DNA of 64,000 nt from assembly GCA_015499995.1 (NCBI GenBank), contig JADNRV010000108.1, positions 124,001 to 188,000 on the forward strand, read 5' to 3'. Made by a program: the position numbers and the translations under genes. Origin of the DNA: Flammula alnicola. Taxonomy: Eukaryota > Basidiomycota > Agaricomycetes > Agaricales > Strophariaceae. Positions 1 to 27,080 of the stretch are shown here, piece after piece; the stretch's first letter is position 1; every line of letters starts with the position of its first letter. Under the pieces are notes generated by a model. That model saw only the letters and a list, made by a program, of their open reading frames with translations. It searched no databases and was not told the DNA's origin.

Positions 1-665
1 CTCTTGTGCAGTTAATGACACCAACTCCCTTTCATGCAGGTAACGACACCGAGGGTATCAAAACCGGTATGTAGCAGCCCAACCTCGCCGGCGCCTCTGC
101 TAACACCCCTTGTGCAGTTAACAATGCCGAGGGTACCCATACCACCCTTTCCTGCAGGTAACGATGTCTCCTGCAGGTAACAATGTCTCCTGCAGGTAAC
201 AATGTCTTGTGCAGTTAATGACACCAACCCCCTTCTCGTGCAGGTAACGACGCCCCGAAACCGGTACGTAGAAGCCCATCCCCGCCAGTGCCGTGCCCCT
301 GCTAACCCCCATACCCCTCTCATGCAGGTAATGACACCGCTTGACCACCTAGCTGGTACCCATACCCCCCTCTCGTGCGGGTAACAACGCTGAGGGTACA
401 GAAACCAGCGTAGCAGCCCAACCCTGCCGGCACCTCTGCTAATACCCCGCTTGCGCAGTTAACGATGCTGAGGGTACCCATACCCCCTTCTCCTGCAGGT
501 AACGACACTGAGGGTATCGAAACCGGTACGTACCTGCAGGTAACGACATTTTGTGCAGTTAATGATGCCAACCCCCTTCTCGTGCAGGTAACGACGCTGG
601 GGGGACCAAAACTGGTATGTAGCAGCCCAACCCCGCCAGTGCCGCCCCCTACTATACAGTTGGCT
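1..665. repeat. degenerate minisatellite at left edge
   Basis: Short modules recur throughout: TGCAGGTAACGAC, TGTGCAGTTAATGA, GAGGGTAYCGAAACCGGTACGTA and AGCAGCCCAACCCCGCC. They follow one another in variable order, giving several higher-order copies of roughly 60-100 bp. No coding pattern is credible; long open frames here simply translate the repeat. The array continues off the left edge. Confidence 0.8.
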
Positions 666-666
666 G

Positions 667-3600
667 GTGCAAGCTGAATGGTACTGGTTGAATACCGCGG
701 GTAACCCGCCAACCCCTGCTGAGGGTACGGGTAAGGTATGGGTCAGAAAAACTCAACCCGTACCCTTACCCCACTGTACCCTACCCGAAACCCGCACGGG
801 TTCTCAAACCCGTGACAATCCCTACGAGCAACACCCAAACACTCAAAAGCCAGACATAATGTTGGGAGACTTTAATATGGTAGAAGATGAAATTGATCGA
901 CTACCGATGCACGCAGACCTTGAAGAAACTGTAAATGAACTTGATGAATTAAAGTCAGAACTAGGACTGAGGGATGGATGGAGAGACACATTCCCAACGA
1001 CGAAATCCTACACTTTTCTCCAAACAAACCAGACACATTCACAGTCGAGGATTGACAGAATATACACCACTAATACCATACTCAGGACGGCCAGAGAGTG
1101 GAAAATAGAGACAAGTGGAATCACAAATGCTGACCATAGGATGGTTACCGTGAAAATAGTTGACGAGAATAGTCCTGACACAGGAAAAGGGAGATGGTCC
1201 ATACCAGCCCACCTTCTCAAGGATAAACCACTTCAAGACTATATCCAAGAACGGGGGAAAAAAGCTGAAACAGATATTCAGGACCTGGAAAAGCGCCCAG
1301 ATAGATGTCCAAATCACAACCCACAAACCATATATGCAAAATTCAAACGAGATATCATGGATATGGCTAGGAAAAGAGACCGTGCAATAGTTCCAAAAAT
1401 TACTCAAGCTATTCGAAATTATGAAAAAGACCTTGAGCAAGTGAATAATGATGAGGAACGAACAGAAGCCGAAAAGGCTGAAGAATCATCCAAAATTACA
1501 GAGAAAATAGCGGAGTTGCAGAGAAAAAAACACGCCAAGAAACGAATTGATGTCGCTGTAAGAAATCGGATTGAAGGGGAAACAGTGAGCAAATACTGGA
1601 CCCAAATTAACAAGGAAGTAAAACCACGAGACATGATCTATGCACTGGCCAAGCCAAATGCGAACCCGAATGAGGATCCCTATGAAAAACAATCACAAAA
1701 GATGGCCGAGTTGGCTCGAAATTATCATGCTGAACTACAAGGAGTCGGAGCTGAAGTGGAACCACAAGTACGAGATGAGAACACAAGGAAAGTTCTACAG
1801 GCAATTAAAGCCAGAACGACAGAGGAACAGAGGAAGATTCTAAGTGCTAAAGTAACTGAGGCAGAAGTTGAACAGGCTCTGAAAAAGACCCATAATGGAA
1901 AAGCAGCTGGAATCGATGGAATAACTTATGAACTCTGGAAGTCAATTGATAGTAAGTATCAGAAAAGTAAGGATACGGAAACCCCAGCCTTCAATCTGAT
2001 CAAATTAATAACAAGTGTCTTCAATGACATCGAAGCAAATGGGGTTGTTCCCTCGACAAGGTTCTCTGAGGGGTGGATGTGTCCTCTCTATAAGAAAAAT
2101 GACCGTAATGATATCGCAAATTATTGTCCCTTGACGATGCTGAACACTGATTATAAAGTGTTCACAAAGGTCCTCGCCACAAAATTATCTCAAGTAGCCC
2201 CATCATTATTACATAAAAGCCAAGCTGGATTTGTACCAGGACGAAAAATAGTAGACCAAACCAAGCTTATCGAAACAATGATCGACTACGCAGAAGCGAA
2301 TGAAGAGAATGGGTTGATAGTGGCATTGGACCAGGAAAAGGCATATGACAAAGTTGCCCACGACTACTTGTGGAAAGCTCTACAAATCTTCGACATCCCT
2401 AAAGAATTCATAAACACGGTCAAAGCCCTATATGAGCACGCGGAAACTCGTGTCATGATTAATGGACACCTGAGCTCAACCTATAGAGTGATACGTGGAG
2501 TAAGACAAGGAGACCCGATGTCATGTCTCCTATTTGACCTGGCAATTGAGCCGCTGGCTACAAGAATGCGAGAATCAGATCTCCAGGGATTTAAAATTCC
2601 AGGGAGTGAGGAAAAACTAATCGCAAATCTTTTTGCCGATGATACAACAACCTTTCTATCCGAAAGTGATAGCTTTGAGGATTTACAAAAGATACTGGAT
2701 GAATGGTGCACAGCATCAACAGCGAAATTTAACATTCAGAAAACGGAAATCATACCCATTGGAACACCAGAATTCTGAGACCAAGTGTTCGAAACAAGAA
2801 AGGTTAAGCCTAACCAGGAAGAAATCCCCCGGAACATGCACATAGTCAAGGATGGTGAAGCCGTTAGAATTTTGGGAGCCTGGATAGGAAACAACGTAAA
2901 TGTCGAGGAAATTTGGGCACCCATGCTCGAGAAAATTGACCACAAACTAGACAATTGGGCAAAAAATAATCCTACAATAGAAGGACGCAAGTTAATAGTG
3001 CAAATGGTAATAGGCGGCATGACTCAATATCTGGCTGTTGTTCAAGGCATGCCGGCATCAGTTGAAAAACGTATTGTTAAAAGAGTACGCAAATTCATAT
3101 GGAATGAGAAGAACTTCTCGCCTGTGAATGAACAGACACTATATGCACCTATTGAAGTTGGTGGTAGAGCCGTATTGGACATTGCGGCAAGAAATGAAGC
3201 AATAAGTCTTATGTGGCTTAAAACTTACCTTGAATTTGGATCGGACAGACCGATGTGGGCGCTGGTAGCAGATGCCTTGATGGCCAAGAAGACACCTAAA
3301 TCGGAAAAAGGGGTCAAAATGGAAGTAAGACAAAACACCTACTTACAATCTTGGAAAACGTCACAAGGAACCCATGCCGTCAAAAGTGTTCGTGGGCTTC
3401 ATAAGGCGGCAGAAAAATTTGGACTACGTCCAGAAGGACTTGCATTCTCGCAAGAAATACGGAGAGCAATGCCAATATGGTATCACAGGGAAGCAGATCC
3501 CAAAGTTCGAAGCATGGCTCGTTCTAATGTGAGCCAATGTTTAATGTTCAAACACAAAATAAGAACAGTAGGGGAAATGGAGAGGGAAGCAAATACCTTG

Positions 3601-5196
3601 GATGACCCAAACCATGAACCTGACGAAAATTGCCGATGTGAAGGCTGCCGCCGCGCAAAGGAAAACCAGATCAACTGTGCTAACCCACATGCATGCTCCA
3701 CGAGAGCCAGAAATATATTAAACACACTACCTCCAAAATGGCACCCTGAAACGTCAACAGAACAATATGAAGATAACGAAAACAGTGAAGATTCGTTCCG
3801 AAAAGGAATAATCACAACAGGTGGCCTCACAAATGTATTCCGGGTCTTCACGGAGGGAGAAACAACGAATGAAATGCCCCTCCTACATGAAAATGTAGAG
3901 GAGGAAAACCAAAGTAAGACCGTGACAGTCGACACTGTGATTTTCGACAATGGCAAAATCACAGGAGTTGGCATATATTACGACGAAGACGATGAACAAA
4001 ATCAAGCCATTAGGCTACCGAATAGGTTCAAGCAAACCGCACAAACAGGAGAATTATCTGCAATTAAAATAGCATCGGAAAACCTGACAAATGTGGGCGA
4101 ATTGTGCGTGAATATAAACTCAAGAATGACAATAGACTCACTCTTAAAAAGGAGAGCGAAAATGGAAGACCAAGGCTACGTGGGAGTCCAAAATAAGGAG
4201 CTCATACAAGCAACGGTGGCGAGTATGAGAAAACGTCGCAAAAGAACTAAACTCAAATTAGTTCGGAATAAACAAAAAGACGCGAGGGCTCAAGAAGCGG
4301 ATACTCTGGCTGATGAAGGGGCCTTGAAACATACCTGTGACGAGATTGATTTGGCGATTGACCAAACAATGAAACTTACAGGTGCGACGTTAAGTAAAAT
4401 GACTCAGTCACTAGCCTATAAGATGATCAGAGAACGGAAGATGTTAAAATACACGAAAAGAAACCGTACAAAAGTGAACATAAAAGCGACACAAAGTGCC
4501 GCAAAAGCCGCCTTTGGAGTTGACATTGCAGAAGAGAAAATTTGGAGGTCGATAAGAAATAAAGACCTGTCGAGGAACATCAGATACTTTATGTGGATGG
4601 TAACCCATGACGCGTACATGATAGGGACACAATGGCTACGACCAACTCTCTCTGCTGAAATGCAAGAAAGGAGCAAATGTCGACACTGTGATGATGCCAT
4701 CGAAACGATGGAGCACATCCTAACGGAATGCAAAGCATCAGGTCAAGAAGAAGTATGGCAATTAGTAAAGAACCTATGGGAAATGAAAAGTGACACACCG
4801 TGGCCCGAACTCTCTCTAGGGACAATACTAGCGAGCGCCAGCGCTAAATTCCCACTACAAGGAGAAGCACGACTCTACCGAGTGATGGTCCCCGAAGCGG
4901 CACACTTAATATGGAAAATGAGATGCACAAGAGTAATCCAGAATGAGAATGAAGCCACGACCGAAGTCGAAGCTAATAGGAAACTATTGAAAAGCATTAA
5001 CGCAAGACTTGAGATGGATTGCAAAATGACCAACCCAAAGTACGGGAAGAAAGCACTTAGGAAAGACATAGTGTTAGACACATGGAAAGGTACCCTCAAG
5101 AATGAGGAGGCTCTCCCTCAGGACTGGACCAGGGAGAGTGGGGTTTTAGTGGGTATCGAGCCGCAGGAGAACGATGGAAGGGGAAGAGATAGATAG
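667..5196 (+). pseudogene. LINE polyprotein: endonuclease / reverse transcriptase / RNase H, one in-frame stop
   Basis: One reading frame runs from the flanking DNA to 5196, broken only by a TGA at 2776-2778; the frame is the same on both sides. Endonuclease remnant: LGDFNMVED near 860-890. Reverse transcriptase: about 1850-2760, with the catalytic FADD motif near 2632-2643. A Cys cluster (CRCEGC...CANPHAC) lies near 3630-3700. An RNase H-like domain with acidic residues spans about 3930-4340. A Cys/His zinc-binding motif (CRHC...H..C) lies near 4677-4730. The stop falls where related LINEs have Arg (motif IG..E[F/Y]R...TRK), so CGA to TGA is the simplest change. The first ~50 codons are host or repeat sequence, not LINE. 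The copy is probably dead because it is both truncated and interrupted. Confidence 0.88.
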
Positions 5197-5410
5197 ATAA
5201 GGTAAGGCACAGATATGGGATGGAAGCGGCTCCGAGTCCCACACTTCGTGCGTAAAGCATTTCCTCACGGTGACAACTAACAAATCTCGGGGTTTAAATC
5301 CCCTGAACAACACAAGCGGGCCCGAAGTGTCGATTTTGTCGTATGCTGACAGGCTGGGATCTTAACGGTCTCAACGCTCCACCAAAAAAAAAAAAAAAAA
5401 AAAAAAAAAA
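815..5410 (+). mobile_element. 5'-truncated non-LTR retrotransposon (LINE) with poly-A tail
   Basis: A LINE in sense orientation. It starts inside the apurinic endonuclease domain, so the 5' end is lost, as is usual for target-primed reverse transcription. It ends in 27 consecutive A residues at 5384-5410. Domain order is endonuclease C-terminus, reverse transcriptase, Cys-rich cluster, RNase H and a C-terminal Cys/His zinc-binding region, resembling Tad1-like fungal elements. The 5' limit is approximate, set where endonuclease-like coding begins. I found no clear target-site duplication. The 3' end lies 45 bp from the stop codon of the convergent MFS gene, so the element probably landed in that gene's 3' UTR. 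Confidence 0.9.
5384..5410 (+). other. LINE poly-A tail
   Basis: An uninterrupted run of 27 A residues directly after the LINE 3' UTR (5197-5383). Its length and lack of decay suggest a fairly recent insertion. Confidence 0.9.
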
Positions 5411-5454
5411 GTTACGATATCCAACGACCATGACAAGAAAGAGTGCTGATTTCA

Positions 5455-8400
5455 TTAATTGGTGTCCCCAACTGAATATCCGATGTCTACCCATGCTCTC
5501 AATCGTTCTCCGTGGCATATGATAAACCAAAGCGCCCTGTGGAGGATCAGATACATATAGCTTTCATGTGACTGAGAGAGTAGGCTTACCCATAAGATAT
5601 CCATACCAGTACAGCGCACAGGGCATTAGTTTCAACGACGCCAAAGCGGTCGATCATGGGAAGGGAAATTGCTACCGCTACCGAAATTATCAGAGACCGT
5701 AGGGCGCTTGAATAATATAGTCAATGGTAGAAATCTGAGCACCGCATTGAATGATAAATACCTGTTGGCTGCTAAGCTTTCCGCACTTCGAGAATGCATG
5801 ATGTCGACGAGATATGCAGCGCATGGACCAAACGCCATATCGACCTGTGGCAACACAGAGAGGTTACGTTAAGAATGAGGAATCGAGATGAGACGGCATG
5901 GGACCACTCACTCCTACACCATTGGCGAATAAGCAGATTAAACTCAGAACCAGACCAGGAGTTCCATCAACAAACCGGTTCACTAAACCGGAGACGAGAA
6001 TCGAGGTAGGAACAATGGTCAGGATTGGGAAGAGAGCGGCCCTCAGCCGGTCCTCGGGATACCAGATTCCACCGCGTTTTTGTCGCCACCGGATGACTGT
6101 GCGATCCGATACGGGCCCTATTATGACTGCCCCCACTGTAATCAAAGGGTAAGGTTCGCTGGACGAGACCTTATGAAGCAGCATTGACGACGAACCCAAA
6201 TTTCCAAGCCCTGAGGGCAGAAAACAGGCCCCAATCAAGGCCTCATTGTGTACATTATAGCGCTCGCCCTTGACAGTATCAAAATCCAATATGAGATGCT
6301 TGTTCTCCTTTATAGATAGAACAAACGACATACGATAGTGTACGCCAGGGGTATCAGTTGCACTAGAAATTGCTCAATGTTAGCTAATGCTTTCTCCGGA
6401 GACCGGCATATACGTACCCCAAACAGTTGTAATGCAAGCAGATAAGATTATCGCCTAAGTACAATCAATAGTGTCAATAATCCGCAGCAGTTTACGGTGC
6501 ATAGGACTCACAATCGCGAATAAAGTCGGACCGCGAAGAAGCCACAGAGGTCGGAGAGGGTTGACAAATGTGAACCCCTTCTTTTGTTTCATTTTATCGA
6601 TATCTCTTTCGCCCGGTTGACTCGTCTCGGGCAGTAGAAAATACAGAAAAGAGAATGCAATAAGACCGAGAACGCCTAGGGTTCCTTGCATAGCTCTCCA
6701 CGAGTAATAATGGGTTGCGTAACCTTCGTTAATTAATAACGTCAAGATTCATGGCCCTCTCGCATTTAATAGAGGTACAGATCAACTCACCTCCAGCGAG
6801 AGGAGCGAGAGATGGGCCGACGAGTGTAGCCTTGACGAATCCGCTGTCATTCTCACTCAGAAAAGTTGGTTTGAGGTGTACTCACAGCGAAAAATACACT
6901 CATCGCCCGGCCTCTTTCTTCGATTTTGAAGATATCTCCGATGACGCCTGTGCCAACGACAGATGCTGGAGAGGCACCCATGGCCTGAATAAATCTCCAT
7001 GTCAGGAGAGATGGTATACTTCTGGCAGTAGAAACACCAATGGAGCCGATGAAGAGGACAGGCAGAGTACAGAGATAGACAGGTCTTCGTCCATCTACCA
7101 CGAGTAATGAAGGAGTTGGCCAAAAAAATGAGAGTAAGGCGCATTAATTACTTACAGAACGTGGAATAGGTGGCACCGACAAGAGCCCCAATCGACATTG
7201 CAAACATAGATAGACTGACAGCTAGACTAATAGAATATAGATCGTTCATTATTTAATATCGATCTCCAAGAATAATAAATAAATAACTCACTTGACGATT
7301 TCGCCTGTTGATCCTAGGTCTTAGGAGAAGTCCTGTGAACCGATCAAACTTTGAAAGTCCGACCGTGAACCGTGAACCGCGCGCTGCCCCGCCAACAGCA
7401 CCGCCACGCTCCCACAAAGACTTCGCCATCGATTCACAAGACTTCGCCACGGTTCACAACTTGTTGGCGGGTGGGAACGGCGATTCACAACTTTGGCAGG
7501 TGCGATTCACAATTTGGGACCCTCAATTCACAATTTGATTCACGACTTTTGGCAGGGGATTGGGTCCGAATGGCGAAGTCTTAGCAGGACTTGACAGACT
7601 TCGCCATTCCCACACTAGGCTTCACCTAGGCTTCACCGCTGCCTCCCTCCTCTCGTCTCAGCCTCCCTCACCCCTCTTCAGCCTCCCTCACCCCTCTCGC
7701 TCATCGCAATCACTCATCGCGTTATGTGGCATTCAGCTAGATTGCCCAGCAGCTAGATTGCCCAGCGCCACCTACTCACTCACCGTCGTACTCACCATCG
7801 TCACTGTTACATTGTATCTACATGGTGCTCACGAGCGCCGTCGTCAGCCAGATCGAATGACGAGGACAGTGGTGCTGACGACGGCGCACCGTCTGCCTTG
7901 GCCACGCCTCCCTCGCTGCCTTGGCCACGCCTCCCTCGCTGCCTTGGCCACACCTCGCTGCTCGCTGCTTCGCCACACCTCGCACCTCGCTGCTTCGCCA
8001 CACTTCGCTGAACCTCGCCACACCTCGCTGCCTACTACTCGCGACTCCACCACTACTCGCGACTCCACACCTCGCTGAACCTCGCCACACCTCGCTGCCT
8101 CGCCACACCTCGCTGCCTACTACTCGTGACTCCCACCACTCGCGACTCCACACCTCGCTGAACCTCGCCACACCTCGCTGCCCACTACTCGCGACTCCCA
8201 CCACTACTCGCGACTCCATCAGTCCACCTCGCTGCCTACTACTCGCGCTCGCTGCCTACTACTCGCGACTCCACCACTACTCGCGACTACTCGCGACTCC
8301 ACCCGTCAACAATCGCGGAAACGTTAACCACCTCGCCACACCTTGCCGCCTACTACTCGCGAGTAGTTCGCGACTACTCGTGACTCCAACTCGCGACTCC

Positions 8401-11400
8401 ACCACTCGCGACTCCACCACTACTCGCGACTCCACCAGTCAACGTCTCCGTTAGCAGATCATAGCAGATCACCTCGCCACCTACTACTCGCGACTCTACT
8501 TCAGTCAACAAATCCGCGGCAGTCGGCGGCACTGGGCGCCTTCACATTTTGTTGACTGACTTATCATACCCTCTCTCCCTCTTCAGCCCTTTCACCATTC
8601 ACAGCCCTATTCACAGCATTCATTTCGGGGCATGTGCCCTGTCGCACCACCGGGCATGCCCGTCGCACCACCGGGCATGCCCGTCGCACCACGTCGCACC
8701 ACTTCTCGTGTCGCACGTTCAGCGGCTCTCTCACGTCGCGCCTCCTCCCTCTCGTGTCAGCGCGACATGAGTACCTTACCTCTTGCAGTAGCCTCATCCG
8801 CCCTTCTCGTCACCATTACCTTATCTCTTGCAGTAGCCTCATCCGCCCTTCTTGCCACCATAGCCTTGTTAATAGACATTGAATGTCATTATTAAATTGT
8901 ATAATAGATAAGATAGATACGAGTAGATATGAGTAATATAGACAAGTAATATAGACAAGGTAATATAGACAAGTAGTTATAGACAAGTAGTATAGACATG
9001 AAAAATATGATTGATACAAAAGAAAGCATATAAACAGAGGACGGTGCACGTTGTATGAGTAGATTGATCAGTTGTCGTCGCTTATGGATCGTTTCCGTTT
9101 CTTGGGCTGTATGCTTCGTTGAAATTGACTCAAACTTCTCCCATCTCGCAAATCATCAAAATGGGAGACAGCTTCAGCGGAGCTATGTCCGGACTTGATC
9201 CTGTCCTCAACGCGGTGAATAAAGAAAAAGAAATTTGACCAGATCTTGCGAGCCTGCAAGTGATATAAGTGATATATAAACTGTCAGAGATAGCGTACAT
9301 ACCTTGTCATCGTTTCGAGGTCTCCAGGATGGAAATCTCCCTCGATGTGTCTCCTGGCTTTTTAAATTACCCCATCTTGCATCGATCAATCGCAAGGGAG
9401 GTTTTCGGCCAATATCAATCACAAAGGTTCCCTCGTCCCAGGCTTGCCAAAGTGATTTGACATCGGAATAGTCACCGAGACTACCAGGTGCATAAGAAGG
9501 CCAAAGATCTGAAGGGTTTGCAATCTTTTCGAATATGTATTGCCATGTGCAATCGTGGATAGTGAAAGATGGATAACTCGAGGATGTGAACGCACTGCAA
9601 GGGGGAAGAATCAAGTCGTGCTGAGTTTGCGGGGGTGGTTGACCTGGAGAAGCCGGTAATGATAAGGGAAGAACGTGATAGATATGATGACCAGATGTTG
9701 AATCATTTGCGGGGTTAACAGATTAGATGCACTTAGACTCGGAGATGGCGCGGGCGCGGACACAACTGAGCTTGGACCGGCAGACGTAGCGCTAACAGCT
9801 ATAGAGAAACCTGATCGTGTTGGTGACTCAGGAAGAGATGTTCGTGTCAGAGATGTTCGTGTCGGTGGAGCAGGTTGGAAATGCGGCATTGCGTGAGACG
9901 GCCCAGCAGATATGAATGATGGTGATGGTGACGGATTGCGGCAGTGTGAGCGGTGTTTTGACGGTGAGAAAGGTTCTGTACGTCGGGTAATGACTGACAG
10001 TCGGGAATTGGTGGTCTCCATGACCTGCCTTAATCCATGGAGTTCAGCAGAAACGGAGGAGAATGCATTTCGTGTTGGGGTTTCTTGAAATGTTCGTTCA
10101 ACAAGTGATGATTGATGTCGTGCGAGCTCTTCTTGCTCAAGTAAGCCTGGCCACTGTTGAAGGAATGATTTCGCTTCACTACTGGAAAGAACTTTGAGGC
10201 GCTTTATGATTCCTGACTCTGGGAATTGGGTTTGAATGGCGCTTATTGCCTAATATGTGGTGGGAATTTTAGCATACAGTCAATGAACGCCACAAATCTC
10301 TGACTTACTCGCCAGAAAAAAGGCCGAAGACTCTGTAAAAGCTCCAAGAAATTAATGGTTCCTTGATTCTTACAGCCCCCTACTCGGAGGGTTGCAAGGG
10401 CATCCTCACAAAATGGGAAAATTTGCCTTTGCAGTGATTCTGGAACCTGAACTTCTGCCCAGGGCACAAAATAGCTCTCGCCTACGGGGAAACCGGCTAA
10501 AGCTACGGCCGCCTATGGTGAGAAATAGTTAGATGGATTGTAAATTATAATTATCTCCTGAGAATGTTAGCATACCACTTTGGGGATTTTTGACCCATAT
10601 ACCTCTCGTCTCGTATTTCCTTCCCAATGGCCCGTTGCGTCAACTTGATCTGCTGGAACACTGCATGAAATTTATGAGATTTATTTATTTTGAATAAATA
10701 ACTCAATGATACTTACCCCATTTCTTCGAGAACTGGGGGCAAGCTCCGGCGAGCGAGATGGGTTTTTTTGTTGGAAGTTATTGAAGTAGGCTCTAGAAAT
10801 GAGCTATACATACGTCCTAGGGCATCTCCAGTGATTGGACGACCAACAGCTCTTCCAAATAATAGAGGAACCTAATTCCATGCATATAAGGAGGAATTCC
10901 CATACAGCATAATAAACAACATACCCTGCGCCATGAGGCTGCATTTTTCCAGTCCCAGTCCGGTACGTGAGAGAGAAGCTTCTCTTGATCAAACATAAAA
11001 TGAAGGAGAATTGCAAGAGCACCAACTGGGCACCTCAGAGGATTGCGATGCGGTAAAGCGAAGCTGTAAGTAGGTTCGGTTTTCTAGATCACAAATCAGC
11101 ATTCTATTTTTAAATAAAAAATTAATTACATACACCTGGTTGAGCTGTTTTTGTCTCGTAAAGCATAGATAGAACTCCAAAAACTTGCCGATTTACTGGT
11201 GAAATTTGTCCATTATGGTCAGTGTAATTTGGAAGGCGCAGGTAGAATGGCTGAATACACGCCATCAGCATAGAGACAAGCTCATCGCTTCGATTGAGCG
11301 TTGAGCACTGCCATGTCCATGCAAAATGTGCTTTAATAATTGATGGCACTAGTGCAAATTTATACGTATAAGAAAGCAATAAGAAGGCATGAGAAAATCT

Positions 11401-13400
11401 GACATACATTGATTGACTTCTTGAAATATTGCTGCAGTTACTTCGTTAAAGTGTTCGGGACGAAGTTCTGAGTCCAAAATTGTGCCTTTCGTGACGTCAA
11501 AGTCCTTGCTTCTATTTTAAATTTTAGCTGAAAGAAATGATGCCATGAAACTCTCACGTACTCCAGACGAAGCCGCTGAGATTGTATCATGACCGCTTTG
11601 TAGAAATCTTCAGTCCGTGATGTCTTTGCCGGTCTTGACACTCGAATTTGAGGGTTCTCATCTTCTTGACGTCGGCGGACACGGCCTAGCATAGTCATGA
11701 TTTTTTTCAGAGAAGACTTATGTTACATGTTAGCCTCGAGATGTGCATATGACCAATTATACACGCACTGCGGAGAGCCTGTCAGTTGTTGGCTTCTTTT
11801 GGCCTCGTCTACTGAATAGTTGACGGGTTGCGGCATATTTGAGATATTCAATCATATGGTTTGCATCGACAATTATGTCGGGTAGTTGACCAGAGTTTAT
11901 TGCCTCAGAAGCCCATGACTAAATAAATCACATGAGAAGGGAACACTTTTCCGTGATTTAGACGTACCTTCCATAGCTTAAGGACTGAATTCTCAGTTTG
12001 ACGCCCACTCTTTCGTCGTGTTTCGAGAATAAATCTATCGGCCCATGCTAATGCATCATGTGTCTTCGTGTTATCTACAACTTGTGATTCCTCTTCATTT
12101 TCTGTATCCCCTGGCTCCTGTTCCTCTTCTTCATCCTCGCTCTCCTGCTCATCCTCTTGAAATCCGGCTTGAAAATATGTATCGAGAGCCCTAGACTCCA
12201 CGTTAACTTGCGCGGAGTTTATTTCGACGGCCTGCGGATCAGGCCCATTGAGTGCAGCACCAGGTGTTCTCCTTTGTCCTGCGCGAGACTCCGAAGATGT
12301 CGACCTCACATGGGTTATGTTGGAATTCACACGCGGGGCGGCAGCCGATTGGGAATGCGTTGAGATGCTGGAGAAGAAGACATATCACTTCTTTGATGTC
12401 ACTTAAGCTTGAACGGAATGGAACGTACCTTGACTCGGACATTTGGCGCTTGTCATCGCCCTCAAGACGGCTCACCAGGTCATTTTTCCTTCCACTTACT
12501 CTCAATTTCCGTTCTTTACACTGAGCTTTCAACTCGCTAACCATGAGCCCCGCACTATAATAAATAATAAATCACTGTTAGCGCCGTGGTAACTAAACGC
12601 GAGAATAAGATGCCTTACTAGTTCACAGGAACCGTGCGTGGGTCAATTGGCGTCGTGCCTAGAGGTGCCGAGGGAGCGTCCACCTGCATGGCATCCGTCT
12701 GGACCGAGGACTGAGCCTGAAATGACATCATGGATCCTGGACAATAAGCCGCGGTTCAGCGTTGCGAGAACAAAGATACGCCGAGCGATGAACTGGCTCA
12801 CCTCCTGTCATGGAATTCCCATCAGTGCCATTGCCATCTTGAGAAATGAACTGATTCGCTGCGGGGTTTAGTGTGCTTTGAATGTTGTGAAGAGCAGGAT
12901 CAATGTCGGAAAGTGAAGCCATGTCGGTCAGTGAACGATGGCGAGCAAAGTCACGTTGGAGAGGGACGTGTCTCATATTTTTTCCTTCGCCTGCGGCGCG
13001 CCCCCTTACTGCTTACCTGATTTGGGACTTCACCTGCGGTTTCCCGCGCCCCAGGACAGGTCACAACTTTTTCGTGAACCGCCCACCAATTCACACGTCA
13101 CAACTTGTGAATTACCGCATTCGACTTTTACTAGGGTTCGCAGATCATGCGCGACTTGAGGCAACAAAGGCGTAAATGTCCCCGTCACGAAAACTACGAC
13201 GGTGGTTAGATTTACACAGAAAATTAACCTGACTATAACTATTAGGAGAACTGACATGGCAGTAGTCCACAGCCAGCAACGACGATCAAGATATTCCTCT
13301 TCTGTTTCGCGGAAAACCGAAGATAGACATCCTCACGTTTGGTGGTAGCGGCGCCGAACTCGAGAGTCGACGAGAGGAGGGGCGATTCTTCTGAGGCCAT
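5455..13400 (-). CDS. MFS transporter, interrupted by a Crypton-type insertion
   Basis: Major facilitator transporter of the fungal polyamine/drug-efflux type, acting in the plasma or vacuolar membrane; substrate unknown. Start ATG at 13398-13400, followed by an acidic/dileucine N-terminus and the conserved DVYLRFS...KR entry into TM1. Exons: 13400-13256; 13193-13131 plus 7313-7292 (one exon split by the insertion); 7214-7156; 7094-6886; 6830-6791; 6723-6512; 6454-6418; 6362-6334; 6268-6196; 6135-5912; 5844-5762; 5706-5590; 5536-5455. All splice sites are GT-AG. With the element and one CTAGG removed, the exons total 1395 nt, giving 464 aa with no stop. Signature motifs are FYGRRPVYL (loop 2-3), the THYYSWRAMQ motif and WYPEDRLRA. 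The present allele cannot make this protein unless the element excises. Low decay of the exons suggests a young insertion. Confidence 0.9.
7319..7560. repeat. Crypton left sub-terminal repeats (TTCACAA / GTGAACC)
   Basis: GTGAACCG occurs at about 7333, 7364 and 7371. TTCACAA or TTCACGA occurs at about 7433, 7453, 7484, 7504, 7527 and 7540. The same motifs recur in the right arm at 13060-13113, including the inverted pair AATTCACA (13088-13095) and TTGTGAATT (13105-13113). Clustered short motifs near both ends suggest recombinase-binding sites. That function is inferred. Confidence 0.6.
7890..8480. repeat. minisatellite, CTACTACTCGCGACTCCAC / CTCGCCACACCTCGCTG units
   Basis: Dozens of imperfect copies of two short words, CTCGCCACACCTCGCTG and CTACTCGCGACTCCAC, in variable order. 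Long open frames across it on both strands are low-complexity artefacts. It lies in the non-coding left arm of the Crypton-type element. Confidence 0.85.
8628..8870. repeat. two small tandem duplications in the Crypton left arm
   Basis: CGCACCACCGGGCATGCC occurs about three times at 8642-8700. At 8769-8862 a ~50-bp unit (TACCTTACCTCTTGCAGTAG...CACCAT) is repeated twice. No coding function is seen. Confidence 0.75.
9068..12922 (-). CDS. Crypton-type tyrosine recombinase with SAP and GCR1_C-like domains
   Basis: Integrase of the host element, about 1000 aa, 15 exons. Exons 2-15: 12716-12619, 12554-12429, 12367-11968, 11918-11769, 11716-11562, 11511-11408, 11348-11134, 11083-10925, 10871-10717, 10660-10576, 10512-10309, 10249-9692, 9620-9303, 9253-9068. 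They total 2913 nt with no stop until the terminal TGA. N-terminal region: a SAP motif (VSELKAQCKERKLRVSG..., about 12540-12440), then an acidic linker. Catalytic core: Arg in NRSDEL (about 11290), RCPVGALA block (about 11035-11010), THLARR (HxxR, about 10765), GHW and REVYG with the nucleophilic Tyr (about 10625-10590). C-terminus: a GCR1_C-like DNA-binding region (SLWQAWDEG...RKPPLRLI, 9500-9380) and a basic tail (KKRKR). The start is uncertain: ATG 12922 gives exon 1, but the obvious GT donor (after 12802) is out of phase and a weaker one near 12793 is needed. An exon-2 ATG is possible. Confidence 0.85.
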
Positions 13401-16034: not shown

Positions 16035-17386
16035 TCAGACGTTGTCCCCGAGGTGGATGGAGCTGTACGTTTCTCCCGCACTGTGATGGAAGCATAAAAT
16101 TGATGGTTCCGCATTATGTTTTCCATCCTCGTCTCTGTGCCCAATGCTTATCCTGTTGTTGAGTAAAACCATCATAGAGTTCGAATACAGTTTACTCAAA
16201 ACGGTGACACTGGTCTCATAGTACGCCAGATGTCCTGGGAGGAAAGCAAGGATGAGACTGACAATTGCCGTTGCGGCTAATCAAGAAGAACAGGTTTTGG
16301 AGCATTGGTGAGTCACAACTTTGCAATTCCAAAAGTCTTCCTTACCTGTTAATGTACCTGTCTCTACGGTCAGGCGGATAATTCTTTTTAGAAGTTGGCT
16401 TGTTTTCAATATGTTGGTCTCGCTGCGAGAGAGCTGCATCGGTTAATGAGGGGCGATGTGTCGAAAATATCAAGTATGTACTCACCGTGTAGGTCATACA
16501 GACGGCAACTATCACATCACATAGAGCACTACTGGGGTACCAGACCTAGAGTCATCCGCTGTCAGATATGGTAACACTGAACCTTGCATACTTACAGCTA
16601 CTGTCGTGCGCACATTTTGAGCAAAGAGCCCTGACAAATGTCCTATAAATTTTGCCTGTATGCCGATAGCAATGGCAGCGCCCAGCTGAACGAGGCAGCA
16701 CTTCAGAAAGGTCAAGCATATTAGCTGCTGCCCCAAGAGTTGTTAAGGAAGTCTTACACAGGCGATTACACATCCTACTGCTTTGTTCTGCATGAGCACG
16801 CTGATTCGATAAGCATAGAAGCCTTGGCACGTAAAGGTTACTATGAAAATGAATAATGAGGTGAAATGAACATATTCGTAAATCGTCTAAAAAGGCACGG
16901 ACCTATTCCAGTAAGGATCGGAATACTAAACCAAAGTGCATTGACTTCGTTTAGAGAAGCCAGATCGGCAAATCCCCGAATAAATGTTTCGAAGAGGTCG
17001 TGGATCAAAAGAACTGTCTGGGATGCCTCAAGGAGGTACACCCAATAGACCAATCCTCGCGTAACCGCTCGATCTTTTGGGAAGGCGAGGTAGTATAAGT
17101 CTTTGACGACAGTATTGGGGTTCAGAAGCAGCTCAGGTAAGAATTTTTGAGACACACACAAACTTGTACCGTTAGAATTCCAAATAAACCTGAGTTTAGA
17201 AGGCCGGCGAGTAGCTGGCCATGACTGGTCAGTAATGGGAATCTTCTAAAAGATAGACACTACTCACCCAAGGTCCTGCTCTATAAAAGTGGAAATGATT
17301 ACCAATCGTCGAAATATTCGTGAAAACGTCGAAACTAACATTTTGCTCAACTCCAAAGAGCCTGGTGCATCAGGAAGAGAAGCCAT
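16035..17386 (-). CDS. DUF6534-type multi-pass membrane protein, paralog 1
   Basis: Member of a large Agaricomycete family of seven-helix-like membrane proteins of unknown function, annotated DUF6534. ATG at 17384-17386; stop at 16035-16037. Exons joined by eye include the entry IAGPW, LLAGLLNSGLFGILTVQ, then LYYLAFPKD, WVYLLEASQTVLLIHD, ALWFSIPILTGI, FYAYRISVLM, a helix containing QLGAAIAIGIQAKF, WYPSSALCDVIVAV, LSRSETNILKTSQLLKRIIR and a final helix ending in YETSVTVLSKLYSNSMMVLLN. All introns are GT-AG and about 45-70 nt. The C-terminal tail is short. It is related to the gene at 60956-62488. Function and ligand are unknown; a role in signalling or transport is not established. Confidence 0.85.
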
Positions 17387-17448
17387 GAAGGGTGGATGAG
17401 AAAGGATCTGACACACCAAAAGAGCACTGTCATGGCAGACTTATATGA

Positions 17449-17977
17449 TTACTGTGCCACCGTTTCTTCGTCGGGGTGTTCGCAAAGCGTGGAACTTAGA
17501 ATCGGAGAATGCAGATGTTGATCCCAAATGGCGACGCGTTCTACCTTACAGCTAACTGCAAAACGATAGGCCAGTTTTGATAATCGTTGATGCATGATGT
17601 TCAGCGGGGTTTGGCCTTTTCGGAGGGAGACACTGCTTTGCATCCAGCCGTTCAGGCGCGGCCAGCGCCTTCCGTTGCCAGGCACCACCGTGACGTACAA
17701 ACAAACAAAATGAACATCAACGCTAGGCGAAACTGGCCGCCAATCGTTTTGCAGTGAGCTGTAAGGCGGCTTCTAAAATGGAATGACCTTCAGCGTCAAA
17801 TATTGAGCATCGCTTGCACAGCTGCCCAGCAGAAATGGTCTCCCAGAACATCCGAGACTGATTGAACGACACCTCGACCAAGATCCACCGAGCGCGGCCG
17901 TCAGATTCATCCATGACAGAACAGCACCAGTGATTTCCGGGAGACGGCATGTCAGCGGCATGGGCTTTTCCCATCAA
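17449..17977 (-). pseudogene. unidentified coding remnant
   Basis: Two adjacent minus-strand open stretches (17977-17723 and 17700-17449) have protein-like composition, for example ILVEVSFNQSRMFWE, LEAALQLTAKRLAA and LAYRFAVSCKVERVAIWD. No GT-AG intron joins them cleanly. It may be a decayed gene; no family is recognised. Confidence 0.3.
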
Positions 17978-17999
17978 ATTTGAATCAACTCCGCTGCAG

Positions 18000-18756
18000 G
18001 CTATGCGAGCGCTGGGCCGCTGGCACAGACCGCGATATGCGCCCAGCTTGACTATCTTTTGAAGTCAAAACATCATTTATTTATGGTTTGAGACTACAAG
18101 CATATAGTAATAGGTCTATAAATCCGTTGTGCAAATTTTTTTTTTTTTTGTGTTTAGCCCAAAAAAGTTGTGGGCCGAACAGTCTGCAGACTGCAGTATG
18201 TGGGCTCTTTGTTTCCTCTCCTTGTTCGTGGGCCGTCAGTACAATGGGACACGATGTGACATGCAGGCCTCGGGAAAACAAGTTAATTAGCATTATAAAT
18301 ACGATGGAAGCTAAATTGAAATGAATGAGTGGAATGATAGTTAATCCTGAGTTGGTCAATGGTAACATTGGTAAGTGACTTGAAATGAAAGATTATATAT
18401 GACGCAAATATGACGAGTAATTTAGAGAAACACATCTGAAGTACTAAATGCAGGCAGTGGCTGCATACTGGAAGTATAACTAGTAGTCAGATTCGAGAGG
18501 AAAGATGGAGAGGTATGAACAGATGAGTTGTGCGATAAGTGGAGTTCGCAGCTGAAGAGTTATGGGACAAAGAACTTCACAGTCGGAAAGGAATATGGTT
18601 GATATGGGACACTATATTTATCAACTTGCCATGTTGAGAAGGATATGTCGATGTGGATGCGTCTGCAGATACGCGTCCAACCATCTGAGGTAACGAAAAT
18701 GAGAAGAGAGTACCGAGCTTCAATGATAAGTTGACCTTGCCGAGACGTCTCACTTG
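18000..18756. other. no gene recognised
   Basis: AT-rich intergenic DNA with a T-run near 18137-18150. Nothing else is supportable. Confidence 0.4.
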
Positions 18757-20035
18757 GGCAAGAGAAAATTGGCGTGCCTTGAGCATGCACGAGCGTGCCT
18801 GAGCGTGCCACGCTCAGCACGCTCAGCCCTTTTGGCGTGCGGTGCGTGCCATGTTCAGCACGCTCAGCCCATTTGGCGTGCAACCGTCTCTTTTAGCGTG
18901 TTGCTACTTTTCGTCACGTTGTACGCATTTAATAGAGTATAATAAATTTCTTTGATATTTTGCACAAGAGATTGCAGAAATGTACACAGTGCAGGTATAC
19001 ATGTAACAGGTAAATTGTAGGTAGTAAACTTATATATTGCTAGTCTCTAAGAGGCCTGTATAAATACCTTTTACAGAGTATCTAGAATACACTACTAACT
19101 TCTAAGTGCTATGAAATACTAAATAAGTAAGTAACGATTAGGCCGTGCAAGTTGAATCAGCGAGGTAAGCGCTCAATAAGCGCTCGAGTCAATCAAGCCG
19201 CATGAAATGTCCAAGTACATTCCCAACACATACCACTGGGTGTTATGAACATCCTGAAGAGCGTGCGAACTGTGCTAACGAGCGTGCGTGAGTTTTCCCA
19301 ATTGGCGTGCAAGCGTGCATAGGTTTGCCCAATTGGCGTGCAAGCGTGCGTTGGCGTGCATCATGACGTGTGAGCGTGCGTGAGCGTGCCACGCTAAAAA
19401 TCGTTAAAATTCACACGCGTGCACCTGCGTGCATCCGCGTGCCACTTTTGGCGTGCTGATGCATATATTCATATTATGTATTTCAAAGGCAAGGATGTTG
19501 CGGACTGCAGTTACTGTAGGTACACTACGATGTACTCGAGTTTTATTTGAGTACATCATTGGTATATCATGGAGCACTGGTTTTTCTGCGTAGCACGCAG
19601 GTGCACGCACTGTGCAAGTATGCAAGTACACAGATGTTGGACAGGTCAGATAGTGTCAATGGGTATATCAGCTGCCACAACAATTCAGAGTACTTATAAA
19701 TAATTTTTATGTTTAATGTACTACCAATCAAATTCATTCTACCTAATTTTGAAGAGGGAGGGCACATGTTGCTGTTTTTGCACGAGGTTTTGTGTTCCAG
19801 GTGCCGTGGGAACATGTCTCACCAGGAGCATTTCCGTGGAAATGACTGACAATCCCTCGGCGAAATGAGAAGAGAGTGAGTAGAGGATAGAATCTGCTCG
19901 CATTGTTGTAGGTACAGGTAATATTTCTCATAGTATGTTTATTTTTTAAAGTACCATGTTCTGTGTACTAGCGTGTGTGGCGTGCATTGGCGTGCATTGG
20001 CCACGCACGCTCGTGCACGCTGATTTTCTCTTGCC
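18757..20035. mobile_element. non-autonomous DNA transposon with 11-bp target-site duplication
   Basis: A 1279-bp element. Perfect 13-bp terminal inverted repeats GGCAAGAGAAAAT start at 18757 and, inverted, end at 20035. It is flanked by the direct repeat CGTCTCACTTG (18746-18756 and 20036-20046). Both subterminal zones are packed with GCGTGC/GCACGC words in both orientations (18771-18890, 19255-19460, 19965-20025), typical of transposase-binding arrays. It has no coding capacity. A TSD of 9-11 bp points to Mutator-like elements, but the superfamily cannot be fixed without its autonomous partner. Confidence 0.88.
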
Positions 20036-21103
20036 CGTCTCACTTGAGTCTTGCCGTTTGCTTGCCTTGCTTACATGTGGGTGGCAAGGCCGATCAGTGG
20101 ACCTCTTCACCTCGACAGTATATAGGGACTTAGTCGGTTTGCACCCGATGCAGCCTGCAAAGAGTTGAAAAAACTCCATCAAATTCAGACACGGACCTAG
20201 GACAACGGCACTTATGAAGTTCCGGTCCACGTAAGATATCTGATGGAAATGAGCGCTCTTGTCTTTTGCGGCGGAGGTTAAGTAGTGATGAGCGGTTGAT
20301 AGAATCCTGACGATGATAACAAAACTCCAAAAAATGAAAGCGCGAAAGTAATGAATTGTTTGATGAGAAAGAGAGCAATTAATACAATTCTAAAGCAGAA
20401 AATCATACCTACATAAGTATGAGAACGCACGCTGACAGAAGACCGAAAGCCGTGCAGAGGAAAAAGAAAGCAAAACGGAAAGGAAGAAGAAACCTTACTT
20501 GATTGTTTCGTTTCCGAGCGATCTCAAATTGCCTTTTCAGTCTCCTGTAAGTATACAAATGAGAAATTTAGAAAGAAAGAAAAAGACGGAGCAGACAGTA
20601 AGACGACTGACTTTGGATTGTCCTCCAGCTCGATCTCTCTCTCGCACCCTCTCTTCGGCAGCTTTCAACCTCTCCTTGTGCTCCTCGAGTCAGGCTTCTC
20701 ATTTGCTATGCGCCGGGCTTCTTCATGCTCGAAAGTTGGGCGCCATTTCAGCGTTACTGTTCATAGAATAAATGTAACGGATTGTTGATTATGTTGAAGC
20801 AATGCACGCAAAAGAAGAAAAAAGTGGAACATTCCTTCTTCCAATCTCGGCGAGTCGAGGTGACTTCTTTACCACTTGAAGCACCTCCTTCCAGGTTGTT
20901 TGGAACGCGAGGTGACTGCAGGTGTTTCAGACATGCATTGTCGTATTCGTTTTGGCTGACTCCGACTGAGTATATTAAGCCTTGACAATAGGGTGTCGTC
21001 TCCTGTGCACTTGGAGAATGCCGAGATGCATGGAGGTGATACTAGGGTGGATAAAGATGCAGAGGATTGGGTGGTCGTTCGTGAGGATATTGAGGGCACA
21101 GGG

Positions 21104-23051
21104 CATCAGGAAGAAACAACTTTGATTAGTAGCGCACAGTAGTCTACGTAGCTGAGGTAGCTCAGTACACAAGTACCCCCGTTAGGTAACATGCGGTAGT
21201 CAACACACCTACAACGTAGCCCGTCATAGCTACACCCAAGTGTACGTAGACACCAGTAGCTGCACATAGATAATCTCTACACAGGACTATGCTGGCTACT
21301 ATGCCTACTAATCAAGCAACATTTTCAAGAATCAAGCAAATGACACAGTAATGATTTTTTATTATTAACAATAACTACTAACAAGGTAAAGTTGGTAAAC
21401 TAGGCAGCATGAACCTAAGAGAGTCATGCAGCATGGAAGGCGCACAGCGAGCAGGCCAGCACCTTTGATCATGCTCCGAAAAGTGTGTATGAGCAGCAGC
21501 ATGCAAGGGTAGGAAGGGGCCACTTACAAGTTGGTGTTCCCGGGGCGTGCTCATGCGCCGCTGATTTCCCATTTTCTACATACATGAGGGGGGTGGGGAT
21601 GATACGCCACATATTAGTTGTATCGGTGTCACTCCTGGCTTCCCATTGAGTGACAGGTGGTAAGCTTTGTCTCCACAACCGTCTCGTCAGTTAGTGTTTG
21701 TGCTATGTACCTTGGGAGTTCGCTGGACCACCTGTTGTTGGTGTTGGGTGTTACCGGAGAGCCGCCGGGGGGCCCAAGGGTTGGAAGGTGAGGCATTAAC
21801 CTCGAGCCCTGTGTTCTGCTGGAAAGAGGGAGTGTAATGGTGAGTAGTGGGATGCGGGGTGTCTGCTACGTACCTGGGGTTCTGCCAGCTCATAGTTGGT
21901 GGTGTTGGGTGTTACCTGGAGAGTTGCTAGGGGAGTGTGTGTGCTTTCAGCGATGTTTCCTGTTGGCCGTTCATAGCAGTCAGCAACATGAGCGCTGAGG
22001 TGCTGAGGCCTGAGTGTGGTATGGTGGTTGTGGTTGAAAAGGAAGAGACGCGTGTTGCATCAAGTTGGATTTCATTTTTCAACGTTCAACAAATACAATC
22101 ACGTGATCGAGCTGAGTCTGAACTGACTTAACGAAAATTCATGAATATGTTCAGAACTAGGGTTGCGGAACTTATTCCTCGGCCTACATGTAACTATGTA
22201 ATTTACAAAGTCCGCAATTTTCGACGGCATGTAATGTAATTTACATCGTAATTTACAAAGCCGGTATTTTCCCACGCTGAAAAACGTGACTCCGCCTGCT
22301 GGCTGCAGAAATCGTAATCTGATAAGATTACCGTGCTCCAACCGTGCTCGAACCACCTCCCAACGTCTCTAGACCCACTCACCGCGCTCGAAAGTACCTC
22401 CCAGTGCTCAGCCTCATCCTGTATAGATGTAACGTTAATGTAACGCGTAACAGGCCAACATAGGCCTTTGCCACAAAATAAATCACGTGAGAATTTTATG
22501 TATAAAATGCAAGGCCAATTTCTGGACTTGCATAAAATAGGTAATTTACATGTAAATTACATTGTAACTTACACTTGGGAACTTATTCGGAGTTTTTTCC
22601 GCAACCCTATTCAGAACAACTTGAACTTGTACTCTGCTCCCTCTGAGTCCTCTTGCCTCCCCCGCTCATCTGCTCAGATTCTCTTCTGGGCTAGTTATCC
22701 TGTTGCCACACCTTTTTTCTTTGGAAAGTAATTTTATTTATGTTGGCTGTGTACGTAGAAATGTACCCAAAATATATTTATGTAAATTCATACTAACAAA
22801 AGTTAGTGTAATAGTAATCCACATTTACGTAGCACTACTGTGAGCCCTCCGCCAACTATTAAAGATACTGACCCATGTGCCAAGACAACTGTGTCTATGG
22901 GCAGTACTCTCACGGCTACCTTGCTGTACTAATAATAACCTTGCACTATGTACGGCTACTGGAGCTACTGTTAGCAATGTAGATAAGGTGTTGACTACGT
23001 GGTCTCCATAATCAGAGCTCAATCTACCGATCAATTTATTGTTTCCTGATG
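21104..23051. mobile_element. CATCAGGAA-family DNA transposon, 1.95 kb copy
   Basis: It begins CATCAGGAAGAAACAAC and ends in the inverted equivalent (TTGTTTCCTGATG at 23039-23051). It is flanked by the dinucleotide GG (21102-21103, 23052-23053), identified by comparing the split pseudogene with its parent. Subterminal GTAGC/GCTAC words occur at 21125-21290 and 22835-22995. Internal direct repeats containing GTGTTGGGTGTTACC lie at 21735-21760 and 21902-21925. No transposase is seen. A hAT-like MITE is nested at 22158-22609. The 2-bp TSD and subterminal repeats suggest the CMC group (CACTA/Mirage/Plavaka-like). Confidence 0.8.
22158..22609. mobile_element. hAT-like MITE
   Basis: A 452-bp non-coding element with TIRs starting TAGGGTTGCGGAA at both ends. 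It is flanked by the 8-bp direct repeat TTCAGAAC (22150-22157, 22610-22617). TGTAATTTACA-type words recur subterminally. The TIR type and 8-bp TSD are diagnostic of hAT. It is nested in the 1.95-kb element. Confidence 0.9.
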
Positions 23052-23568
23052 GGAAGCCTGATCTACCAAGTGTGGTCGACAAGTTGGCCATAGTGAAAGT
23101 TCCGGGTGGCCGATATGAAATCTCCATAGTCTTTAGTGCGGTTCGGCGGCTCGCATCTAGGCTTGTTTCAATACTTACTAGACATGCCTGCATATCGAAT
23201 AGCCACCGCCATTCTCACCATGGAATTAAAACGCCAACAAATCCTTCTCATCCTCCTTGCCAGCCTCCTAATATGTATAAAAAGGAGCTACAGTACCAGC
23301 ATACGCAGTAACAAAAGCAGCGCCACGGGCAAAAGCAGTGCGACAACCACGTAAATAGGCAAGCATACGAGCTGACGATGGGTTCCTCCTTGGCTTGTGC
23401 TTTGTGGGACATGCAGAATGGGATACCGAGGAAGAAGGAGGAAGAAAGGACGCATGCGGCCGAGTACTAGAGGGTGAATGCGGCGATGTGGATAATAAAG
23501 CGCCGTGTAAAGCGATCTACGAGGAGAAGAAGGGATACAGGGATAGAGTGGACTCTTGACGAATAACA

Positions 23569-23681
23569 CAACTATCCTCGAGCCAGCGACCAGCTCTGAG
23601 GCAGTAAAAACGGAGCAAATTTTGCAATGCGGAGACCTCTTGGGTCTCGGCTAGGAGAACGACGTGAAAGGACGAGTCCAA
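23569..23681. repeat. distal end of inverted segmental duplication, copy 1
   Basis: CAACTATCCTCGAGCCAGCG... through GGCTAGGAGAACGACG matches the reverse complement of 48395-48264. The match then resumes at 27739, across the 4-kb insertion. Confidence 0.8.
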
Positions 23682-25482
23682 CATCAGGAAAACTACACAT
23701 TCCTTATAGGGCTTACATCACTTGAGAACGCTTGAGAGCTGGCTTGGATCACTTAGCACTTGAGGTTACAACTACAAACAAACCCAAGTCAATCCAAGTG
23801 AGACCCCAAGTGCATAAGCTGTCAGAGCTCGATCCACCATCCAAGTGAGAATTCCCATCAGTAAATCGTGGAAAAATTGGTATGTGGTTGTGGCTCCGAC
23901 AACCCGGTGGCAGTGTTGCGACTTCTGACAATGCCAGATATGGCATTATACCTTGGTTGCCGATATGGTCGAGACGTTATCGGAATGTACTCTTCTGGTC
24001 AGATTTTTGTAAGCTCATGTCAATCTTATAGATCCATATATTGCCTCTCTCAGAATGATATGAAGGTTATGAGCGACTGATCATTATTAGACATTAATTA
24101 TACTCAGTTGCAAAGGTAGTACCAGCATTTCTGGGGTCATGTAAATGCTCGTCAGTATGATTGAATTTTATAATGAAGTTTTCATAATTGCCAGAGGATT
24201 GCGACTTTCCAATCAGTATTTCAGGTTGGGTATGACCTCTTTGAATCTCGCCAACTTGAAGAAAGCCTTCGGCAGTCCATTTATGGACGAGACATCCGAG
24301 TCGCGCTCCGAGGACCGAGCGAGGTCAGAACTATTTCTCCCTGTAAGTCTGTAAACTCACAACTGCCAGCAGATATGAAGTCAACCCAAGCATCATCCTT
24401 ATGCCTGCCTTATTCTATTGCAGAGCCAGGTGGCAGTGCTTGGAGTAGATTACTGGACATTACTGAATGTTGAGTCGCGGACTTAAGAATCGGAGTCGGG
24501 AATGACGGATACAAACAAAATTTAAATTACTCCCAGTCCTTAGAACTCATCCAGACCCCTTCAAACCTCTTCAAATCAGTGCAAGAATATTTCTGTCAAG
24601 TCGTAAGAGGGACTTAGAGAATTATTGAGGGAAACCAGGCACGTGCACATCGACAATGGAACGGAACGGAACGCGCTAAGCCGGAGATCATGTGAACACA
24701 TTCAACGGTCGGAAAAGGAAATTGATGTAAGTTGATTCGTTGAACTTCGGAATCGTTGCTTGCCTCCCACCAATATGTTCTCACTCCCCCACCCTCGGTC
24801 TGCTGCTACTCTCCCCCAAGGTCACTCACTCTAGGATGCGAAAAACCTATATAACAAGAACCAGAGAACTCCTGATCGAGCCCGTCTCTCCTCCTATGTC
24901 GTTGTTGGGCTTGCGACGCTGACGAGCGCCCCAAGCCCAACTCCGACATTGGTTTGGTTCATGGATGGTGGAGATGGCGCTGATGGGCGTACATCTCTTC
25001 CATTCATTGCCACTAGACCGCCGCAGTCAGCAGCTCTTCAGTTTCTTTCACGTCGTCGGAATCGTTGCAAGTTGCCTCGTTTACAAGCAATTGGTATGTT
25101 TGTTCTTGGATCATCATTGTCTCCTTCACTAATCCTTGTTTATTTTAGAGCTTCCAAGTTTTCAACAAGCTCGTCACTTTTGTGCTCGAGCCACGCACCG
25201 CCTTGTCATCGAGTCGTCTTCAAGTACAAGCTTGTTGTATCTTGAAGCTGGAATTATGGGTGCACCTCTGGTACATTGTCGATGTCTCGTTTTCTTATTT
25301 ACCGTTCCAATCACATTCATAGCAGTGTCCATTCTGTAGAGTCTACTCTCCAGTATTGTATCAGTAGTATTGAAATAAATCATATTTGAAACCTGCTACC
25401 ATATTCTCGAAGCGACGCAAGCAATATTAAACCGATGGAATAGCGTTGCATTGCCATTACAAATGCTACTCAGAAATACCTA

Positions 25483-26945: not shown

Positions 26946-27080
26946 ATTGGAGGACGGACCGGTAGTCGGTGACTACTGAAGTACGGGAGAATTCGCCGGT
27001 TGAGCATCACAGGGCTGCGCCTGTCATAGTAAGCTCGGTCTGCATCTTAGCTTCGAGAGGCCGTTAGCAAGCACGTCGCC

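Follow-up and report, generated by a model that had tools for sequence, protein, structure and literature searches.

A Crypton-type element in a transporter exon of Flammula alnicola and the GAYCT target word of its family

The interrupted exon and an element-free counterpart

The window analysed here, a stretch of 64,000 nucleotides from contig JADNRV010000108.1 of the agaric Flammula alnicola (forward-strand positions 124,001 to 188,000), contains a minus-strand gene for a transporter of the major facilitator superfamily (MFS), which is split in exon 2 by an inserted element of Crypton type (Table 1). We read the element on the minus strand, so that its left end is the 13141 side and its right end the 7316 side, and refer to this copy as C11. 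DNA searches covered the assembly of 74.4 Mb in 861 contigs. The same assembly holds a second, colinear locus, C412 (L021), which has no element at the same MFS region and is about 96% identical to the window on either side of the site. An original prediction, made from the letters of the window, had proposed that an element interrupts the MFS exon and suspected that the insertion is polymorphic; the exon pieces and the unoccupied locus bear out the interruption, and the element-free copy within one assembly supports the suspicion.

On C412 the uninterrupted exon reads GCATGATCT^AGGATCAAC, that is ...GCATGATCT|AGGATC..., and in longer context CGCATGATCT^AGGATCAAC. The occupied copy in the window reads GCATGATCT-GCG-AACCCTAG...CTAAGACCT-AGGATCAAC. 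Comparison of the two places the borders at 13141/13142 on the left and 7315/7316 on the right, and the element therefore comprises the 5,826 bp between them. The exon joined in this way translates as HDLGSTGEIV, and in the occupied copy the MFS frame continues 36 codons past HDL into the element before a stop. The HDLGSTGEIV reading aligns at the site without a gap to a solved transporter, Quinidine resistance protein 2 (E=1.4e-9), and, weakly, to the solved MFS protein NorA (E=0.017), which has DLG there.

These borders differ from those first proposed. The original prediction held that the ends could be read from a single sequence, as CTAGG on both sides of an element of 5,817 bp. The motif is indeed present at both junctions (13131-13135 and 7314-7318, CCTAG on the minus strand), and joining the two copies does keep the reading frame. 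The join translates as HDLRTLGSTGEIV, however, and retains 9 bp of the element in the exon; it stays in frame because those 9 bp are three codons, and the intact exon on C412 lacks them. The right CCTAG is made up of three element bases and two target bases, and the left one is internal element sequence. Other copies of the element (described below) do not end at this motif either: they have in common AACCC and, equally spaced, GANCT outside CCTAG, and CCTAG is missing altogether from several left ends. Both findings, different ends in other copies and an intact exon that the CTAGG join does not restore, are outcomes that the original prediction itself had named as refuting. The occurrence of the motif at both junctions is a coincidence, and we give ends at CTAGG almost no credence. 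Agreement in a 5-mer at both junctions, even with the reading frame kept, was insufficient for placing the border, which calls for caution.

Blocks shared by the window and C412 follow the same order at 89-97% identity, from window position 5408 to about 23681. Because these blocks are colinear we read C412 as the other haplotype, in which case the element is probably heterozygous; a recent insertion is plausible. The competing view is that C412 is not the pre-insertion allele and represents either a paralog or a site from which an element was excised and which then healed. It is colinearity by itself that argues for allelic status, and several features of C412 speak against it: C412 has an out-of-order 79% match to window 52082-53938, there are unmatched stretches on both sides, and the C412 stretch that was fetched has no match to the window below 5408. 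Set against this are the same-order blocks, the gap-free match of the MFS reading to other transporters, and the site of another family copy, C13, which has a 100% identical unoccupied partner. We regard a paralogous or healed C412 as very unlikely. Window positions 17000-27000 match many contigs and are broken into blocks on C412, which suggests that repeat insertions make up much of the difference between the haplotypes.

Table 1. Features of the element and of the exon that it interrupts, in window positions.
Feature	Position	Strand	Basis or remark
Inserted Crypton-type element, 5,826 bp including one GAYCT copy	7316..13141	-	C412 comparison; ends common to family copies
Left core GATCT, target-derived	13142..13146	-	Present in unoccupied locus
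Right core GACCT, element-derived copy	7316..7320	-	GAYCT in 5/6 other complete right ends; GACCC in C187
MFS exon 2, upstream part	13142..13193	-	
MFS exon 2, downstream part	7292..7315	-	
Recombinase gene, 15 exons modelled by hand	9068..12922	-	Domain matches; alignment with sister copies
GC-rich tandem repeats, non-coding 3' part of element	7893..8288	.	
Variable trinucleotide (GCG in window copy) between core and left arm	13139..13141	-	Most variable left-end triple
Left arm CCTAGTAAAAGTC of att-like site	13123..13135	-	Imperfect inverted repeat with right arm, 10/13
Right arm GACTTCTCCTAAG of att-like site; one base common with right core	7320..7332	-	
Left subterminal TTCAC/GTGAA cluster, 7 in 300 bp	12842..13141	-	
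Right subterminal TTCAC/GTGAA cluster, 11 in 350 bp	7316..7665	-	

The recombinase gene and its homologs

The gene model of the element encodes a SAP domain at residues 80-113 (Pfam, E=2.9e-10) and an NDC10_II domain, that of Ndc10 and Crypton tyrosine recombinases, at residues 445-688 (Pfam, E=3e-21). With this domain match and the R, H, R and Y residues in place, the Crypton-type identity given in the original prediction stands. The window copy has a one-base frame shift, compared with the C13 and C306 copies, at exons 13 and 14, which are probably a single exon. The gene model has no Pfam match to a DUF3435-type captain at E<=1. Five open reading frames (ORFs) in the 3' part of the element lack a Pfam match at E<=0.1, and neither a DDE transposase nor a reverse transcriptase was found in the gene model and these five ORFs, the small ORFs having been scanned in part.

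A protein search with residues 230-700, in which 8000 candidates were scored, returned 24 homologous proteins at E<=1e-3. Of these, 22 are assigned to an organism, in each case a mushroom-forming fungus (for example Panaeolus, Flammula, Galerina, Grifola, Suillus, Lactarius and Armillaria). NDC10_II was detected in 14/18 homologs and Phage_integrase in 3/18 (E<=0.5). The catalytic residues are mostly kept among the 18 of 24 homologs that were aligned, with R in 12/17, H in 15/15, R in 12/15, H in 14/16 and Y in 13/13 of the rows that have a letter at the position.

Family ends, target sites and traces of movement

Seven complete copies have common ends (C11 in the window, C13, C135, C187, C268, C306 and C612), and there are further partial copies. 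The right-end pattern has seven matches without mismatch; the left-end pattern has 11, nine without mismatch and two with one. Left ends consist of GANCT, about three variable bases and then AACCC. AACCC was built into the left-end search pattern and also coincides with the start of BLAST matches. GANCT was not part of the pattern and precedes 11/11 left ends, in eight of them as GAYCT; it lies two bases closer in C268 and within a remnant in C612. The 11 include both C282 and C434, near-identical copies of a single locus with only about 57 bp of left end, which we kept as a left end and not as a complete copy; C27, whose left arm is damaged, is outside the count. Two candidates, C146 and C369, with three mismatches in the right end and no BLAST match to the element, were dropped.

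The closest sister of the window copy, C13 (L023), is 97.5-98.8% identical to it in the main blocks and is itself broken by extra sequence at about 5147-5898 and 5981-6247. Two shorter copies, C268 (3,168 bp) and C187 (2,704 bp; L027/L028), keep these ends, while little of their sequence matches the coding part; they are probably non-autonomous.

For each of the six other complete copies, the two flanks were joined as the GAYCT rule predicts and the joined sequence was looked for in the genome, with 40 of 110 candidates scored. Together with C11, unoccupied or sister sites are available for five of the seven complete copies (C11, C13, C135, C187 and C612); the rule is exact at three of these, off by a core base at one and by a 10-bp right-end remnant at another. 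The predicted empty site of C13 is present on C769 with 100% identity over all 280 joined bases. For C135 the site reads GACCT^TCAAA in 4/4 fetched sister repeats, and for C612 it reads GATCT^CGAAGCC in 5/5 fetched sister repeats, among more that were listed. GAYCT thus stands at both ends of the element and once in the unoccupied sites, apart from exceptions at C187 and C612.

Three copies have core mismatches, and the target-derived and element-derived cores can therefore be told apart. At core base 3 of C11 the target has T, the left junction T and the right junction C; at the same base of C135 the target and the left junction have C and the right junction T; at core base 5 of C187 the sister site has C, the left junction T and the right junction C. 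These mismatches would fit an exchange of strands somewhere between base 3 and base 5 of the core, and would equally fit a five-base overlap in which the mismatch is resolved either way. Because the left GAYCT comes from the target and the right one from the element, there is no duplication in the strict sense. Flanking 5-bp cores, and the imperfect inverted arms described next, are also what a DDE transposon would show if it had a 5-bp target duplication, degenerate inverted ends and an unrelated recombinase gene as passenger. The left and right cores of C11, C135 and C187 differ, unlike a fresh duplication, and the gene model has only SAP-type and recombinase domains, with nothing recognised by Pfam in the five 3' ORFs; we hold a DDE element to be highly improbable.

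When the termini are joined right-to-left they read GACTTCTCCTAAGACCT-NNN-AACCCTAGTAAAAGTC, an arrangement like that of an att site, with arms around GAYCT and three variable bases. The NNN columns have entropies of 0.99, 1.22 and 0.92, whereas the 34 columns that follow average 0.21 (9 of the 11 left ends; C268 and C434 dropped), and their composition is biased to NGA and so non-random. Among the left triples AGA, GGA, GTG, GCG and CGA, set by eye against the right-flank triples, the C27 triple CGA equals the right flank of C612, possibly by chance. Among internal pairs of C11, 36/5000 reach the arm value of C11. Each of the seven copies carries 5-7 TTCAC/GTGAA motifs in its first 300 bp and 8-11 in its last 350 bp, as against 0.64-1.11 per 300 bp between the ends, and TTCAC sits in a longer motif near CGATTCACAACTT. 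Tyrosine recombinases have arm sites, and by analogy the subterminal TTCAC motifs may be binding sites of the recombinase.

We interpret the element as a Crypton-type tyrosine-recombinase DNA transposon that inserted into MFS exon 2 in one haplotype and not in the other, that has a recombination site in its joined ends and that most likely recombines, as a circle, with genomic GAYCT; we put the probability of this reading at about 0.85. The element would be excised as a circle in which the right end is joined to the left end, forming a single site with the arms GACTTCTCCTAAG and CCTAGTAAAAGTC around GAYCT and the three variable bases. The recombinase would then, most likely, recombine this joined site on the circle with a genomic GAYCT, such that the target's GAYCT would stay on the left and the element's own GAYCT would go to the right.

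Several observations weigh against this interpretation. The sister site of C187 (C112) reads GAGACCC^GTTATG, which equals the right junction of C187 and is one base off the rule; the site of C612 requires an extra event; and C268 and C306 have no junction-spanning match among the 40 of 110 candidates scored. The arms are imperfect, with 9-11/13 inverted-repeat matches in the seven copies, and for individual copies between 4 and 296 of 5000 shuffles of the ends match at least as well, the copies being related. GCR1_C, the second CryptonF domain, appears at the C-terminus below the cut-off (E=0.12; 13.1 bits versus 23; profile positions 8-80/80) and at E<=0.5 none of 18 homologs shows it, several of them being without that region. 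The predicted structure is too poor for use, with a mean predicted local distance difference test score (pLDDT) of 39. Finally, a joint of right end, NNN and left end need not come from a circle: a right end that is already present is itself a GAYCT target, and an insertion beside it yields the same letters.

Such joints do occur. The sequence CCTAAGACCT-NNN-AACCC is found without mismatch at two places, the right junction of C306 and the left junction of C612, and a third joint, at C449, has two mismatches to the pattern and no element in the 1.1 kb fetched. At <=3 mismatches the joint pattern has 15 matches and its reversed control 24, and only the three with 0-2 mismatches were used. We rejected C449 as a solo joint, since C301, its 95% identical homolog, natively has CCTAAGACC directly before the flank; relative to C301, C449 has about 19 bp extra, which carry 15-16 bp of left end. 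Its simplest reading would be an insertion followed by loss of the element. The sister repeats of C612 lack 9-10 bp that precede the element in C612, read CCTAAGACCT there and equal C612's own right end, and the simplest reading of this locus would be an insertion beside an older right end whose copy was later lost. In the right flank of C306 (L022), the right end is followed by three variable bases and then by a left-end stub of 12 bases, and the C449 remnant stops at the same base as this stub. The joints fit a circle, but because insertion beside an existing right end gives the same letters they are not proof of one, and a circular intermediate gains indirect support only.

The same element and ends could also arise by one-strand copy-out that leaves the donor in place, as in bacterial SE elements. 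SE elements, in the part of their literature consulted (PMC9345347), move by tyrosine recombinases, their joined site contains a 6-bp spacer, and no empty site remains behind; clean excision was not observed among the loci here. The remnant at C449, absent from C301, suggests by contrast that a copy was lost after insertion, although the loss does not look precise and may have been a deletion that had nothing to do with transposition. We judge copy-out unlikely and prefer movement through an excised circle. Within that preferred reading, a tentative and rather doubtful extension is that NNN represents coupling bases acquired in previous transpositions, like those of some bacterial conjugative transposons, and that the C306/C612 joint is the attachment site of a real Crypton circle.

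Other features of the window lie outside the element and were noted by eye. Directly downstream of the MFS gene, 592-5196 on the plus strand holds two long adjacent ORFs resembling a non-LTR (long terminal repeat) retrotransposon, reverse-transcriptase-like and then with an RNase-H-like region. Two very similar F-box-like ORFs, at 28220-29697 (minus) and 45995-47748 (plus), form an inverted duplication about 16 kb apart. ORFs of a repeated motif at 37260-38272 (minus) are probably a minisatellite.

Relation to known systems

CryptonF transposons reportedly go back to work by Goodwin in 2003. In the excerpts of Kojima and Jurka (2011; PMC3212892) used here, CryptonF elements have a recombinase with GCR1_C and mostly 6-bp repeats, Crypton borders are hard to define, a circle is proposed by analogy, and non-autonomous families are reported for animal Crypton groups. 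The element in the window has in common with CryptonF an R-H-R-Y tyrosine recombinase, a fungal host, short direct repeats at its ends and no long repeats. It differs in having the 5-bp GAYCT, an N-terminal SAP domain (not among the CryptonF domains in the same excerpts), no more than a weak GCR1_C match, arms like those of an att site, and clusters of TTCAC near the ends; its family also includes shorter copies with the same ends, in a fungus and not in an animal group.

Starship captains are of the DUF3435 type, and Starships have large cargo. Like the present element, Starships are fungal mobile elements with tyrosine recombinases, short direct repeats and empty sites, and a circular form has been proposed and not shown for them, according to the portions of PMC12506042 and PMC12134995 on which we drew (the circular form in PMC12506042). 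Unlike those large cargo carriers, the present element is 5.8 kb long and has one recognised gene, whose best family match is NDC10_II.

In Tn916-like elements the joined ends consist of two arms and a short variable spacer, as they do here. The same holds for SE elements, to judge from the available part of PMC9345347. Both are bacterial, and a donor-site origin of the variable bases is only conjectural in the present family. NDC10_II, the best Pfam match here, is also the domain of the centromere protein Ndc10/Cbf2, whose catalytic site is not preserved (PMC3212892, in the excerpts mentioned), whereas the residues are present in this element. Among the open-licence papers listed in the literature searches, we saw no agaric Crypton with mapped unoccupied sites, and the 9 papers listed in one of them did not contain the term 'SAP domain'; in the portion of PMC12810828 seen, Cryptons appear only within a reference.

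The element is thus an agaric Crypton of known kind, which differs by its 5-bp core, SAP domain, att-like arms and subterminal clusters. No new mechanism is shown here; the family is unusually readable, and this makes the question of a circle testable. The form in which Starships move is likewise called open in the consulted part of a 2025 paper (PMC12506042). This small family has unoccupied or sister sites for 5/7 loci and a single target word, its joined-end sequence is defined and it includes a footprint; as such it offers a specific target for the polymerase chain reaction and for binding assays. If the tentative reading of the variable bases as coupling bases is right, the family would directly record, in the genome of a eukaryote, transposition by way of a circle.

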